A stretch of DNA of 26,608 nucleotides, from IMG/VR virus record IMGVR_UViG_3300023216_002972, positions 1-26,608 of that record; one strand, given 5' to 3'. Shown piece after piece: positions 1-5,860 of the stretch (within the stretch, counting starts at the first letter, position 1; every line of letters starts with the position of its first letter). A program made the position numbers and the translations under genes. Source of the DNA: a virus. The notes under the pieces were generated by a model. The model made no database searches, was not told the DNA's origin, and worked only from the letters and a program-made list of their open reading frames with translations.

Positions 1-294
1 CTATTTCACCGAGGGCCTTGATGAAAGCACGGTGAAGATCCTCGCTGGCAGATCATTCATGTTTCCGAAATACATGAAGTCCAGAGACAACCCGTAAAAC
101 TTGTGCAGCTTCTTGGCCATTTCCAGGCTGAGAGGCCGCTTGCCGTTTTCGACCGGACCATAGGATTGTTCGCTTAGCTCGGCGCCTTCTGCAAAGGCGC
201 GTTTGCTTTGTTCAAACGCCAATGTTCGGACCGCCGCTAAGCGCGCGCCGATAGCCTCGTTTGAATCGTTACCCTGATGCATATTCGGTTTCAT
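1..294 (-). CDS. Small XRE-family HTH protein, probable prophage repressor
   Basis: Predicted 97-aa DNA-binding protein, the only leftward gene at this end and divergent from the Cro-like gene. Residues about 16-72 form an XRE/Cro-C1 helix-turn-helix fold: a helix near IGARLAAVR, a recognition segment near LSEQSYGPVENGKRPLS, then helices AKKLHKFYGLSLDFMYFG. The short tail (73-97) leaves no room for an S24/LexA-like autopeptidase domain, so RecA-stimulated self-cleavage is not expected; release of lysogeny would need an antirepressor or another route (inference). The start ATG (complement 292-294) is preceded by AGGG about 10 nt upstream. The stop lies exactly at base 1, so the gene is complete. 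The operator repeats just upstream suggest it represses both itself and the rightward early operon. Confidence 0.8.
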   Translation of the reverse strand: MKPNMHQGNDSNEAIGARLAAVRTLAFEQSKRAFAEGAELSEQSYGPVENGKRPLSLEMAKKLHKFYGLSLDFMYFGNMNDLPARIFTVLSSRPSVK

Positions 295-1415: not shown

Positions 1416-1542
1416 TCAAAAACCAATGTTTGAAGACGAATTTCCAGAATGGGCCGGTTGGCTCGTCGTGGCTATGTTCCTTGCGGCTTTGTTCTTTGGC
1501 CTGGGTGTTTGGTACGCCTGCGTGCTGGAGATCCGCACGTGA
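1405..1542 (+). CDS. 45-aa single-span membrane protein
   Basis: This small ORF starts MTRDQKPMFEDEFPEW, has a hydrophobic span at about residues 17-40 (AGWLVVAMFLAALFFGLGVW) and ends VLEIRT. An AAGGTG Shine-Dalgarno lies a few bases before the ATG, and it overlaps the VanZ-like gene by 11 nt, so the two are probably translationally coupled. The acidic N-terminus and single span fit a bitopic accessory membrane peptide. It may partner with the upstream protein. No family is recognised. Confidence 0.55.
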   Translation: MTRDQKPMFEDEFPEWAGWLVVAMFLAALFFGLGVWYACVLEIRT

Positions 1543-1556
1543 AGCTGGCGGCGACA
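1542..1556. repeat. 15-bp direct repeat, left copy
   Basis: AAGCTGGCGGCGACA begins on the last base of the 45-aa gene's stop codon. It recurs exactly at 1979-1993, where it forms the 5' arm of a hairpin. The two copies are 437 bp apart and bracket the leftward gene at 1603-1884. Confidence 0.8.
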
Positions 1557-1602: not shown

Positions 1603-1884
1603 CTAGTGACTTGGAGGTTGAGTCTTCTCTTTCTCAACGAATGCGGCGCATTCAAGGAGAGCCTGAGCTAGTGCGATTGCTCGGGGTGCACTCATCGCGA
1701 ACTGATGAACCTGGTTCCGCTCTAGAATCCGACCGGGTGTATTCTGATCCTTCTGATAGAGGCGGAAAATGACGGTATCTGACTGCATTTCAACGCCCAA
1801 TGAGGTGACAAAACTGTCTGCAAAGGCAGCAACAAGATCCCCGTCAAGGTCTGTGATCAGTTTTTGGTCATTTACTTTGAACAT
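1603..1884 (-). CDS. Reverse-strand 'moron' protein, possibly DUF3467-like
   Basis: A 93-aa protein on the opposite strand to the surrounding operon. I start at MFKVNDQ (complement 1882-1884) because AAGGAA sits 7-8 bases upstream; the longer in-frame start 11 codons earlier has no such site. The N-terminal half alternates strands (VAAFADSFVTSLGVEMQ, then VIFRLYQKD). The C-terminal half contains FAMSAPRAIALAQALLECA, similar in feel to the DUF3467 ending in which a strand is followed by '.SP..A..L...L'. That match is weak. Orientation, flanking direct repeats and a possible own promoter suggest an independently acquired gene expressed from the prophage. Function unknown. Confidence 0.6.
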   Translation of the reverse strand: MFKVNDQKLITDLDGDLVAAFADSFVTSLGVEMQSDTVIFRLYQKDQNTPGRILERNQVHQFAMSAPRAIALAQALLECAAFVEKEKTQPPSH

Positions 1885-1977: not shown

Positions 1978-2075
1978 AAAGCTGGCGGCGACATATCCTC
2001 TTCCGGTGTCGCCGGGACTACCAGCTTTGCTGCTGGCTCGATCTGTTTTCCTCCTCCCTCCAGATCGGGCCAGCA
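1978..2075 (+). ncRNA. Double-hairpin RNA with CCUCCUCCC loop (Cuckoo/CcsR-like candidate)
   Basis: Two adjacent hairpins occupy nearly every base. Hairpin 1: AAAGCTGG (1978-1985) pairs with CCAGCTTT (2021-2028) and CGGCGACA (1986-1993) pairs with TGTCGCCG (2007-2014), with a six-base bulge; its 13-nt loop contains CCTCTTCC. Hairpin 2: TGCTGGCTCGATCTG (2031-2045) pairs with CAGATCGGGCCAGCA (2061-2075), all 15 pairs allowing one G-U; its 15-nt loop contains CCTCCTCCC (2050-2058). Known Cuckoo-family RNAs of Rhodobacterales and Rhizobiales, such as CcsR of Rhodobacter sphaeroides, carry this anti-Shine-Dalgarno motif in hairpin loops. It may be a free sRNA or a 5' leader of the gene at 2092, which begins 16 bases after the second stem. 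No U-rich terminator follows. Confidence 0.6.
1979..1993. repeat. 15-bp direct repeat, right copy
   Basis: Second exact copy of AAGCTGGCGGCGACA. It is most of the 5' arm of hairpin 1, so the left copy at 1542-1556 could in principle also pair with the same 3' arm (2007-2027). Confidence 0.8.
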
Positions 2076-2091: not shown

Positions 2092-2313
2092 ATGATGGAA
2101 GTGCAGCACGCCGGACATACAATTCTCGTAAACCGAAAAGCCGGGTTTGTGGTGGTTGGAAAGAAGTTCCACCAAGACCAGGTCGCGTGTGATCGTATCC
2201 CCTCGCGCATTGCGTTCTATGAGAGGCTGGTCGAGAAATCCAAGGGCGGGAAAGTCTATGAGCCCAAGGTCGCCGCTTTCAAAGAAGCGCAGCGCCTGGT
2301 GGGGAGGGCCTAG
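2092..2313 (+). CDS. Unknown 73-aa early phage protein
   Basis: Starts at one of two tandem ATGs (2092 or 2095). The Shine-Dalgarno is poor (GCGGGG), and the strong hairpin with the CCUCCUCCC loop ends 16 bases upstream, so translation may be controlled by that leader. The protein opens with a strand-rich part (HAGHTILVNRKAGFVVVGKKF) followed by a basic helical part (IAFYERLVEKSKGG, AAFKEAQRLVGRA). It heads the replication-gene cluster and is two bases from the next ORF. No family recognised. Confidence 0.6.
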   Translation: MMEVQHAGHTILVNRKAGFVVVGKKFHQDQVACDRIPSRIAFYERLVEKSKGGKVYEPKVAAFKEAQRLVGRA

Positions 2314-2315
2314 CC

Positions 2316-2531
2316 ATGACCGCGCCAACCCATACCGAACATTTTGCTGTTGAACATATGACCTTTGTTTTGAGGCCGGTTGCCGAGGGTGGCGCCACGT
2401 TTGCGGTTCTACCTACAGAGGCTGCTAAGTCCAGCGATCGCAAAAAGGTTCTGTTTTCGGGTGGGGTTTCCCCGACCATGCCGGGTCAGCTGCGCAAGCT
2501 GGCCGATCGGTTGGAAGAGGTTTTGCTATGA
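2316..2531 (+). CDS. Unknown 71-aa early phage protein
   Basis: Begins two bases after the previous stop and overlaps the next gene by ATGA, placing it firmly in the replication operon. The sequence has short strands (FAVEHMTFVLRPVAEGGATFAVLP, KKVLFSGGV) and a C-terminal helix (PGQLRKLADRLEEVLL), a small alpha/beta layout. No catalytic motif or signal peptide. Function unknown. Confidence 0.6.
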   Translation: MTAPTHTEHFAVEHMTFVLRPVAEGGATFAVLPTEAAKSSDRKKVLFSGGVSPTMPGQLRKLADRLEEVLL

Positions 2532-2854
2532 CCTGCATCTCTCGCCCGGCTTTTGGACTGGCTGCCAATGCAGTGGCTCTGAAGGCCATCCATGGTGAGG
2601 TGCGCCAGCGGGACTACATCAATCTTGCAGAGATGCTTTTGACCCATGCGGGCGCTGATGAGGGCGCGCGACAGGCAACTCTCACCTTCCTCCAGAACAG
2701 CCGCCATGACATGCCCGCCGCGGGCAAGGCGCTGCAGGACTTCGTACTGGAATGGTCCAGTGACATAGATCCCCGCCGCCCAAGTGAGGTGCTGGCGGAA
2801 ATCGAGATCGAAGCCAAAACGGCGCCCTGGCGCGAAAGGGCGGATCTGCAATGA
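2528..2854 (+). CDS. Unknown 108-aa helical early phage protein
   Basis: Overlaps both neighbours by ATGA. It is predominantly helical and acidic (INLAEMLLTHAGADEGARQATLTFLQ, AGKALQDFVLEW, PSEVLAEIEIEAKTA). Translational coupling directly to the primase suggests a replication accessory or loader role, but this is inference from position only; no family is recognised. Confidence 0.6.
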   Translation: MTCISRPAFGLAANAVALKAIHGEVRQRDYINLAEMLLTHAGADEGARQATLTFLQNSRHDMPAAGKALQDFVLEWSSDIDPRRPSEVLAEIEIEAKTAPWRERADLQ

Positions 2855-4038
2855 GTTTCGCGGAAGATCCCCGGCTGCAAGATGCCAAAGATAAGTCGGT
2901 CGAAGAAGTGCTGGCGCTGCTGCAGATCTATGGCCTGCGACGTTCGCCCAATCAGCGAGAGATGTGCGGTGCTTGCCCCAGTTGCGGCGATGCGGGGCAC
3001 AACCCGAAAAAGGGCCCATCCGACCGCTTCAACATCAACCTTACAACCGGTGCGCACTTCTGTCGCCGGTGCGATTTGCGCGGTGGCGACGTGATCGCCC
3101 TGGTGCAGAACGTGCAGGGCGGCAGCTTTGTGGAAGCCTTGACCTTCCTGTGTGGAGAGAAGCTGGATGCGGAAACGCCAGAGCAGAAGGCCGCGCGGGA
3201 GAAGCGCCAATCTGAGGCCCGCGCCAAAGCTGAAGAGAAGCAAAAAAGACAGGCTTCCTATGAAGCGAAAAGGCGGCAACAGGCCATTAAGGATGGTCGC
3301 GCGATTTGGTTTAGGGCTCGCAAAGCCAACCATGTGGCGACACTTCGAGGATACCTGACCGCGCGCGGTTTGGGTGCCCTATACGGCAAGGGTTTTCCTC
3401 CTGTAGTCAGATACTTGCCAGATCATCCTTATGTTAAGTCGATCGGCGGCGTATTGCGGACGCTTCACCGTGGCCCCTGTATGATTGCCGGCATTCACAA
3501 TGCAGATGGTGTTGGCACCGCGGTACACCAGACTTGGATTGATCCGACACAACCCGGCAAGAAAGCCCGAATACTTCATGACTGCACCGCGATGCCGGCC
3601 AAAATGGTGCGCGGCTCCAAAAAGGGCGGTGCCATTCGCTTGGTCACGCCTGCGGGTGCCACCACGCTAGTGATGGGAGAGGGGATCGAAACGACCCTTT
3701 CCGCCTATTGCGCGGATGCGGTGCCCGGCGCGGCCTATTGGGCTGGGGTGGATCTCGGCAACATGGCGGGAAAGATGGCGCGCATCGAGGGCAAACGCTG
3801 GTCAGGTGTTCCGGACATCGCAGACATAGACGCCTTCGTTCCGCCCGCTTGGTGCCGTCATCTGATCTACATCATGGATGGGGATAGCAACCCAAAAGCG
3901 ACCCGCGCCAAGCTGGAAGCTGGTCTGGCGCGCGCGGCCGCGCTGCGTCCTGGGCTGATTGGCACAATTGTGCCGGCCGGTGATGGCGTTGACTTAAACG
4001 ACGTTTTGATGGGCGCGGGGGGCAAGGCGCATGGATGA
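2851..4038 (+). CDS. CHC2 zinc-finger / Toprim DNA primase
   Basis: A 395-aa phage primase that would make RNA primers for phage replication. The N-terminus has a zinc ribbon with C42-x2-C45 and C71-x2-C74, followed by RGGDVIALVQ, typical of CHC2/gp4-type primase fingers. A charged, probably coiled segment (about 105-150) is a linker. The C-terminal half is Toprim-like: the strand LVMGEGIETTL carries the acidic residue pair E277/E280, and HLIYIMDGDSN carries D343/D345, then a closing GDGVDLNDVLMG. Start at 2851 by ATGA overlap with the previous gene. It overlaps the helicase by 8 nt, so the two are expressed together. Confidence 0.88.
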   Translation: MSFAEDPRLQDAKDKSVEEVLALLQIYGLRRSPNQREMCGACPSCGDAGHNPKKGPSDRFNINLTTGAHFCRRCDLRGGDVIALVQNVQGGSFVEALTFLCGEKLDAETPEQKAAREKRQSEARAKAEEKQKRQASYEAKRRQQAIKDGRAIWFRARKANHVATLRGYLTARGLGALYGKGFPPVVRYLPDHPYVKSIGGVLRTLHRGPCMIAGIHNADGVGTAVHQTWIDPTQPGKKARILHDCTAMPAKMVRGSKKGGAIRLVTPAGATTLVMGEGIETTLSAYCADAVPGAAYWAGVDLGNMAGKMARIEGKRWSGVPDIADIDAFVPPAWCRHLIYIMDGDSNPKATRAKLEAGLARAAALRPGLIGTIVPAGDGVDLNDVLMGAGGKAHG

Positions 4039-5860
4039 TTTCAGCGCAGAGGTACGGGCGCAGTTTGCCAAAGGTGAACAGGTTGCCGGCGGCGAAACTG
4101 CGCCAGACCCACAAGGCAACACGACCGCGCCACCCCGCACCCCGCAAGACCCGGCGTTGGCGGAGCAGGGCGCCCGTTTCCCGCTCAACGACACCGGCAA
4201 TGGGCAGAGGTTCGCGCTCTATTGCGGCGAAGAGGCCATGTATGTGCCGCGCGTGGGTTGGCACATCTGGGATGAAAAGCGCTGGAAGCTGGATCCGGAT
4301 GGCATCGCCGTTCGCCGCCTGGCGCAGTCGATTCAGGATCATGTAATCGCCGAGATCCCTTACACGATGCTAGAGGATTGGCAGGTTACCCAGATCGATG
4401 AGGAACCAGGGCACCGCCGCAAAAAAGCAGAGCTGGAGGCGATCGAGAAAGACGCCCGCACCGCGGAGCAGGAAATCGAGCTCGAGGACGTGCAGCAAAA
4501 GCTGGCGTGGATCCGTAAGCTGAAAGATCGGCGTGCCTCGCTCAAGTCTGACCATCGCAGCTTCGCCAAAACCACTGGCAACAAAGGCCGCATCGATGCG
4601 CTGCTGACAGAGGCCGTGACCTCGCTCAATCAGGATATTGAAGATCTCGATGCGGATCCGCTGACTGTGAACACGGAATCGGGATTGCTGCGGTTTTCCA
4701 AAGAACGCGACGAATTAGATGCGTCGTTTCCCGGCGGTGGTTCAACCAAGTACATTGCGAAAGCAACGTTACTGCCTCACGAGCGGCATGTGTCGATCGA
4801 GGGGCGCAACCGCCCGCAATTCATCACCAAGATGATGCCGGTAAAATACGATCCGGCGGCCACTTGCCCGCAATTTGACGCCTTTTTGGCCCGGGTGCAG
4901 CCGGATCCGGAGATGCGCGCCTTCCTTAAGCGGTGGTTTGGCCTCTCGCTGACCGCGTTGCCGGTGCAGAAGTTCCTCTATTGCTACGGCATGGGGGCCA
5001 ACGGCAAATCGCTTCTGGCCAACCTCATGCGCCGCATGCTTGGCGACTACGCCACTATGGTGAAGATCGAGAGCCTAACCGGCAAAAATCGCAAGTCAGG
5101 CTCTGACGCCACGCCTGACCTGATGAAGCTGATCGGCGCGCGTGCCGCGATCACCAATGAACCGGAAGAGGGCGAACGCCTCCAGGAACAGAAGGTCAAG
5201 GAAATGACCGGTGGCGACAGCATGTTAGTGCGCAACCTGCATTCTGACTTTGTCGAGTTCACGCCCTATTTCAAGCTGACCTTCACCGGCAACCACAAGC
5301 TGGAGATCCGCGGCACCGATGATGGCATCTGGCGCCGGCCGTTGCTCTGTCCATTTGACGAGCAGATCCCAGAGGCCGAACGCAATGAGAAACTTGGGGA
5401 CATCCTCTTTGACCAAGAGGCGCCCGGCATTCTCAATTGGATGATCGCCGGTCTGCTTGAGTACCTCGAGGCCGGATTGCAAGAGCCTGCGCAGGTCACA
5501 GATGCCACCGAGGAATACCGCAAGGACAGCGATCCTATTGGGGACTTTCTCGGCACGGCCTGCATCATGGATGGCGGGGATGACTTCACGACAGCCCGTG
5601 ATGTGATCGACGCCTGCTACCTGTATCAGCTCGAAAACAACGCCAACTCCTGGCAGATGGGCACGCTGGCCCGCAAGCTCAAAGAGCGCGCGGACAAGTA
5701 CCGCCATCCAAACAGCGGATATGCCTATCGGCGACATAAGCGCAATGTTTGGGGCTATTCCGGCCTGCGATTGGCCGATGATTGGCGCGCCAAGATTAAT
5801 GAGTGCACACGCGACACCAACGGCAAGCCGATCCCTCGGCGAGATGTAGACGATCGATGA
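4031..5860 (+). CDS. D5/P4-type SF3 helicase (phage replication ATPase)
   Basis: A 609-aa protein of the phage/plasmid primase P4-family C-terminal type. An N-terminal region of unclear role is followed by a charged coiled-coil-like segment (about 125-175), a D5_N-like region, and an SF3 ATPase core: Walker A GMGANGKS at 320-327, Walker B-like RAAITNE at 371-377, sensor/motif C FKLTFTGNHKLEIRG at 414-428 with N421, and basic residues DDGIWRRP at 430-437. The C-terminal part (about 500-600) resembles a winged-helix DNA-binding domain. Such helicases recognise origin iterons in related elements; the repeats immediately downstream are the obvious candidate target. It works with the overlapping upstream primase. 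Confidence 0.9.
   Translation: MDDFSAEVRAQFAKGEQVAGGETAPDPQGNTTAPPRTPQDPALAEQGARFPLNDTGNGQRFALYCGEEAMYVPRVGWHIWDEKRWKLDPDGIAVRRLAQSIQDHVIAEIPYTMLEDWQVTQIDEEPGHRRKKAELEAIEKDARTAEQEIELEDVQQKLAWIRKLKDRRASLKSDHRSFAKTTGNKGRIDALLTEAVTSLNQDIEDLDADPLTVNTESGLLRFSKERDELDASFPGGGSTKYIAKATLLPHERHVSIEGRNRPQFITKMMPVKYDPAATCPQFDAFLARVQPDPEMRAFLKRWFGLSLTALPVQKFLYCYGMGANGKSLLANLMRRMLGDYATMVKIESLTGKNRKSGSDATPDLMKLIGARAAITNEPEEGERLQEQKVKEMTGGDSMLVRNLHSDFVEFTPYFKLTFTGNHKLEIRGTDDGIWRRPLLCPFDEQIPEAERNEKLGDILFDQEAPGILNWMIAGLLEYLEAGLQEPAQVTDATEEYRKDSDPIGDFLGTACIMDGGDDFTTARDVIDACYLYQLENNANSWQMGTLARKLKERADKYRHPNSGYAYRRHKRNVWGYSGLRLADDWRAKINECTRDTNGKPIPRRDVDDR

Follow-up and report, generated by a model that had tools for sequence, protein, structure and literature searches.

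Genomic context of the hairpins

The window analysed here, a virus record of 26,608 nucleotides, carries genes for a repressor, a primase, a D5-type helicase, TerL, a portal protein and a capsid protein. An early operon starts at position 390 on the plus strand, facing the repressor gene, and runs to the primase and helicase genes. Two hairpins occupy the interval that separates the early genes from the replication genes, 805 nt before the primase gene; the second of them stops 16 nt short of the ATG at 2092. The features of this region are the following:

1 to 294, minus strand: cI-like repressor gene (HTH_3), divergent from the early operon
1542 to 1556, plus strand: direct repeat, copy 1 (repeat search), starting inside the stop codon (1540-1542) that ends the small ORF before it
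1603 to 1884, minus strand: gene of unknown function between the direct repeats, with homologues in other phages
1979 to 1993, plus strand: direct repeat AAGCTGGCGGCGACA, copy 2 (repeat search), equal to the 5' arm of hairpin 1
1978 to 2028, plus strand: hairpin 1 (fold), its loop region carrying the degenerate anti-Shine-Dalgarno (anti-SD) sequence CCTCTTCC at 1997-2004
2031 to 2075, plus strand: hairpin 2 (fold), with a 15-bp stem including one G-U pair; in relatives the loop is kept and the stem covaries
2092 to 2313, plus strand: gene lacking a Shine-Dalgarno (SD) sequence, distantly related to a gene of a Shimia prophage (L320)
2316 to 2531, plus strand: small early gene, with a homologue in the same prophage (45%)
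2528 to 2854, plus strand: pre-primase gene of 108 aa, with homologues right before the primase in L320, L324, L325, L402 and others
2851 to 4038, plus strand: primase gene (zinc ribbon and Toprim; Pfam and PHROG matches), used as synteny anchor
4031 to 5860, plus strand: D5-type replication helicase gene (PF08706)

The two direct repeats are identical over their 15 bases and enclose the reverse-strand gene, whose homologues, also on the reverse strand, are found in L437 (54%), L427 (47%) and L343 (35%). In L437 the homologue occupies the corresponding interval, after an anti-SD hairpin. When the flanks are joined across the repeats, hairpin 1 comes to lie immediately 3' of the stop codon of the short upstream ORF. 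The gene and its flanking repeats are likely to form an inserted, mobile cassette that parts the early genes from the hairpins, and in our reading the hairpins would have filled a single intergenic gap of the operon before this insertion. Judged by where they lie, the hairpins would be under the early promoter rather than under stress induction.

Structure of the hairpins

The plus strand of positions 1978-2075 is predicted to fold into the two hairpins with an energy of -50.6 kcal/mol (z -5.85), a value reached by none of 200 shuffled sequences (-29.8 ± 3.6 kcal/mol). Hairpin 1, at -23.7 kcal/mol when folded alone, pairs AAAGCTGG with CCAGCTTT in an outer stem and CGGCGACA with TGTCGCCG in an inner one. 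Hairpin 2, at -26.1 kcal/mol, presents a 15-nt loop, TTTTCCTCCTCCCTC, at 2046-2060, which contains CCTCCTCCC at 2050-2058 and could in principle bind Shine-Dalgarno sequences strongly. The original prediction had described two adjacent hairpins at this place, the second with a 15-bp stem, one G-U pair and a 15-nt loop containing CCTCCTCCC, the first with a degenerate version of the motif, and had called for folding against shuffled controls; the fold and its controls bear out this description in all its parts. The poor ribosome site that it assigned to the gene at 2092 is likewise borne out by the missing SD sequence.

A scan for stems of at least 15 bp, with at most two G-U pairs and loops of 4-20 nt, retrieves only hairpin 2 in the 26.6-kb window. 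Resampled windows lead to an expectation of 0.02 such stems even before the loop motif is required, which argues against a chance structure. An intrinsic terminator was rejected for lack of a T-run at the hairpins, and no terminator-like site was found in 1400-2900. Consensus searches detected no sigma-70-like promoter near the hairpins, the consensus covering alphaproteobacterial promoters poorly. Because neither a terminator nor such a promoter is found near the hairpins, a free small RNA would need to be processed from a longer transcript. A coding role was also considered and rejected: a frame is open across the hairpins (1864-2313), yet a good start is missing from it, and the stem covariation described below speaks against coding. 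A search among phages for DNA similar to positions 1500-2600 returned none.

Recurrence in related phages and prophages

Hairpins with the same loop first appeared among the IMG/VR relatives of the TerL protein. A primase profile search then gathered 80 loci from named genomes, mostly Rhodobacteraceae, and 80 viral loci, and the removal of near-duplicates left 113 phage or prophage loci sharing the primase, mostly from Rhodobacterales. Upstream of the primase, 24 of these 113 loci, about a fifth, carry CCTCC in a sense-strand hairpin loop, compared with three for the antisense motif GGAGG, one downstream of the primase and 0-6 in resampled upstream sequence. The loop 5-mers most enriched upstream of the primase are CTCCC, CTCCT, TCCTC and CCTCC (5.4- to 6.8-fold). 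The genes that follow the hairpin differ, and a start codon usually comes 15-27 nt after its end. The window conforms to this class, having an anti-SD-loop hairpin on the sense strand, upstream of the primase and shortly before a start codon. Its closest primase relatives, one viral (L002) and the other the Shimia prophage, keep the early genes and show no anti-SD loop hairpin; the element is therefore not universal.

Cultured phages are among the carriers. Between gp52 and gp53 of the Rhodobacter capsulatus phage RcapNL there is a hairpin of 14 bp whose loop reads CCATCCTCCTCCCT, and in Paracoccus phage vB_PthS_Pthi1 (L516, MK291444) the hairpin lies within an annotated hypothetical protein. 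In the latter, annotated p15 and p16 span a structured leader and the hairpin (L516:3084-3344) and are probably not genes. Phage Mel-JY03 carries the hairpin GCCGCCGCGCC[CCCTCCTCCC]GGCGCGGCGGC; this phage (L518) is recorded with a cyanobacterial host, Microcystis, while in both primase and anti-SD hairpin it is similar to phages of Rhodobacterales, and the host label is perhaps doubtful. Separately, a viral contig contains a SorX-like small RNA (L299:2299-2376) at 45.3 bits for a cut-off of 46.6.

Covariation of the stems around a constant loop

Among 18 distinct phage hairpins including that of the window, 97.2% of cells are paired and both-sided changes affect 8 of 10 pairs, in a set biased towards structure as pairing partly served to recognise its members. 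The covariation score is 0.49, against 0.14 for shuffled alignments, none of 500 shuffles scoring as high, and it collapses on a shift by a single column. While the stems change by compensatory substitutions, the loop, CCUCC(UCCC), stays constant. A set selected through the leader described in the next section is less exposed to this bias, and a loop-anchored count there finds at least two Watson-Crick pair types at all 12 stem positions. Conservation in related prophages, on which the original prediction had staked itself, thus takes the form of covarying stems around an unchanging loop.

The hairpins adjoin replication genes, and a feature acting as DNA, such as a replication-origin cruciform or a protein-binding palindrome, could be imagined at this place. 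Such a feature would not account for the 24:3 strand bias of CCTCC over GGAGG, for the near absence of these loops downstream of the primase or for compensatory stem changes around a constant loop. Taken together with a plain terminator or chance, we consider it very improbable. The strand bias and the constant loop indicate that the function is exerted by RNA, and the hairpins very probably constitute a functional anti-SD-loop RNA element.

The structured leader of Paracoccus-type phages

In Paracoccus-type phages the anti-SD hairpin stands at the end of a conserved structured leader of about 270 nt. Its alignment (A5) comprises L395:2770-3061, L462:3185-3474, L472, L363, L359, L357 and L362; the leader has an invariant core of 24 nt, CCTGCGGCTGGCCCGGCCGAGAGC, and displays compensatory change in 21 of 65 predicted pairs. 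It also includes a hairpin resembling a terminator, followed by CCTTTTTATTC. Loci picked by the core alone (54, of which 29 are distinct) have the anti-SD hairpin in about 21 of the 29 cases, mostly at a fixed distance. One locus (L352) has kept the stem and changed the loop. In another (L361) the hairpin is missing where its relatives have one, and it is therefore not essential. Against Rfam, the longer form of the leader yields only sub-threshold ar14 and CcsR1 matches, over its last part. The window has neither the conserved leader nor its core.

Relationship to Cuckoo/CcsR, ar14 and other regulatory RNAs

The phage element resembles the Cuckoo/CcsR RNAs (RF02791; CcsR1-4 of Rhodobacter sphaeroides) in its adjacent hairpins, its CCUCCUCCC loop, its variable stems and its alphaproteobacterial setting. 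It differs from them in lying in an early operon as a single or degenerate double hairpin, with neither DUF1127 gene nor terminator, whereas the host RNAs form tandem arrays of several units of about 83 nt. Cuckoo RNAs are further characterised by cotranscription with the DUF1127 gene, RpoH-dependent induction under stress and processing by RNase E. No Rfam family matches the window at its gathering cut-off. The best match is CcsR1, covering hairpin 1 only (model positions 44-77), at 14.5 bits for a cut-off of 65.3, a threshold that host arrays of the same clade, at 30-52 bits, do not reach either. Other measured phage elements score up to about 22 bits with this model, L257 reaching 21.8 and the prophage L395 19.6. 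Within the window, the motif CCUCCUCCC, expected in every adjacent loop of a Cuckoo RNA, is present in loop 2 only, loop 1 reading CCUCUUCC; there is no second copy forming a tandem array, no DUF1127 gene among the neighbouring proteins and no 3' Rho-independent terminator in 1400-2900. The original prediction of a Cuckoo/CcsR-like RNA therefore holds for the loop motif, the site in a phage early operon and the compensatory conservation; it does not hold for family membership, given the degenerate loop 1, the missing array, DUF1127 gene and terminator, and a covariance-model score, proposed at the time as a check, that falls far under the cut-off.

The ar14/NfeR1 RNAs (RF02344) are another point of comparison, being composed of several hairpins with the same anti-SD loop motif and variable stems (PMC10746234). 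Unlike the phage element, ar14 measures 123 nt and has a sigma-70 promoter to itself, and its model finds no match in positions 1900-2150 at E<=10; the prophage L395 scores 25.1 bits for a cut-off of 58.8. Double hairpins resembling ar14 (36.5-37.6 bits) were also noticed on contigs classed as viral, which may be phage or flanking host DNA (L301:1266-1358, L061:4365-4446 and L098:1930-2011, all on the minus strand). As judged from sequence and predicted fold, the element is of the Cuckoo/ar14 anti-SD kind and encoded by phages, yet stands outside the Cuckoo family by the features examined; since these defining features are lacking, we do not file it as a Cuckoo RNA.

Regulatory RNAs encoded by phages are otherwise exemplified by PreS of lambda and VpdS of VP882, which a review describes as Hfq-dependent and endowed with named targets, unlike the present element (PMC12197685). 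A word search of that review gave no alphaproteobacterial entry and one mention of Shine-Dalgarno, concerning the host RNA FnrS. For this group of phages, a literature search of partial coverage turned up no account of RNAs with anti-SD loops. To our knowledge, anti-SD loop RNAs of the CcsR/ar14 type are described only as host stress regulators. The viral RNA element is real and apparently undescribed.

All 13 host genomes tested contain CcsR copies, most of them in tandem arrays and typically at 30-52 bits, and in one host locus a DUF1127-like gene adjoins the array. In Paracoccus sp. R12_2, the prophage (L359) hairpin loop TCTCCTCCTCCCT is identical to a loop in the CcsR array of the same strain. 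A Paracoccus genome also has a CcsR1-like match of 28.2 bits apart from its main array (G004:C8:39855-39939, plus strand). RNase E excises host CcsR RNAs from a precursor that encodes protein, and the DUF1127 protein CcaF1 promotes this maturation (PMC10253847). By analogy, the phage hairpin might mimic CcsR and recruit or titrate host CcaF1 and RNase E, which would either fix where the replication mRNA has its 5' end or interfere with the CcsR stress response. The occurrence of CcsR arrays in prophage hosts, the DUF1127-like neighbour, the identity of phage and host loops and the existence of phage decoys of host RNA regulation, such as AgvB in the review cited above (PMC12197685), are compatible with this idea, and sequences cannot tell bait from base pairing; we hold it to be improbable.

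Action in cis or in trans

The original prediction offered as an alternative that the hairpins act as the leader of the gene at 2092. In general terms, the loop would pair with the SD sequence of the next gene, or block the ribosome at that site, and so control translation of the replication cluster. The position fits: in most phages a gap of 15-27 nt leads from the hairpin to the start codon of one gene or another, although a gap this short could simply reflect compact genomes. The loop matches the SD sequence strongly in L402 (-20.8 kcal/mol), and a match is plausible in L351, L440, L429, L357, L362 and L462. Across 21 phages, however, loops pair no better with their own downstream site than with permuted ones (means of -8.8 and -9.2 kcal/mol, p 0.85), so that specific matching in cis is not supported. 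The downstream gene of the window has no SD sequence, and its site pairs with the loop at -5.8 kcal/mol. Many loops moreover keep the full host 9-mer CCUCCUCCC though the downstream sites differ. The position speaks for the leader proposal and the unmatched loop and ribosome site against it, and we regard control in cis as rather unlikely. The absence of tuning between a loop and the ribosome site that follows it favours action in trans over a purely cis switch, and the element has about an even chance of acting mainly in trans.

Predicted duplexes point to no consistent target. Within the window the loop pairs best (-20.8 kcal/mol) with an SD-like G-run that precedes the called start of terS. 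This candidate was rejected: the start is probably mis-called, relatives conserving a later GGAGATTTTT start region, and in these relatives terS is not the best partner of the loop. For ar14 loops, predictions give multiple mRNA targets (PMC10746234).

A possible role in early phage expression

The reading that we prefer, to which we give an even chance, is that a temperate phage of Rhodobacterales encodes the hairpins in its early operon as an anti-SD RNA element, with a Cuckoo- or ar14-like action. The trans role is favoured because tuning to the element's own site is missing, the host 9-mer is often kept and the processing of host precursors offers a precedent (PMC10253847). The hairpin RNA would be transcribed from the repressor-controlled early promoter, and host RNases would cut it out of the early mRNA, as with the host CcsR RNAs. 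Its loop would then pair with the Shine-Dalgarno sequences of other mRNAs, those of the host and possibly also of the phage, and this pairing would damp translation of the targets early in infection or induction.

More tentatively, and with somewhat less than an even chance, the hairpins may represent a widespread, fast-evolving class of early anti-SD RNAs in Rhodobacterales temperate phages, joined in Paracoccus to the leader of about 270 nt. Such a class would re-use the host CcsR code, throttling competing mRNAs or disarming the CcsR/CcaF1 stress circuit during induction. If this is true, a phage class sharing the loop code of its hosts, situated at a fixed place in early operons and present in the cultured phages RcapNL and Pthi1, would provide a route by which phages set alphaproteobacterial translation. 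The cellular role of CcsR and ar14 loops becomes testable in a small, inducible system.
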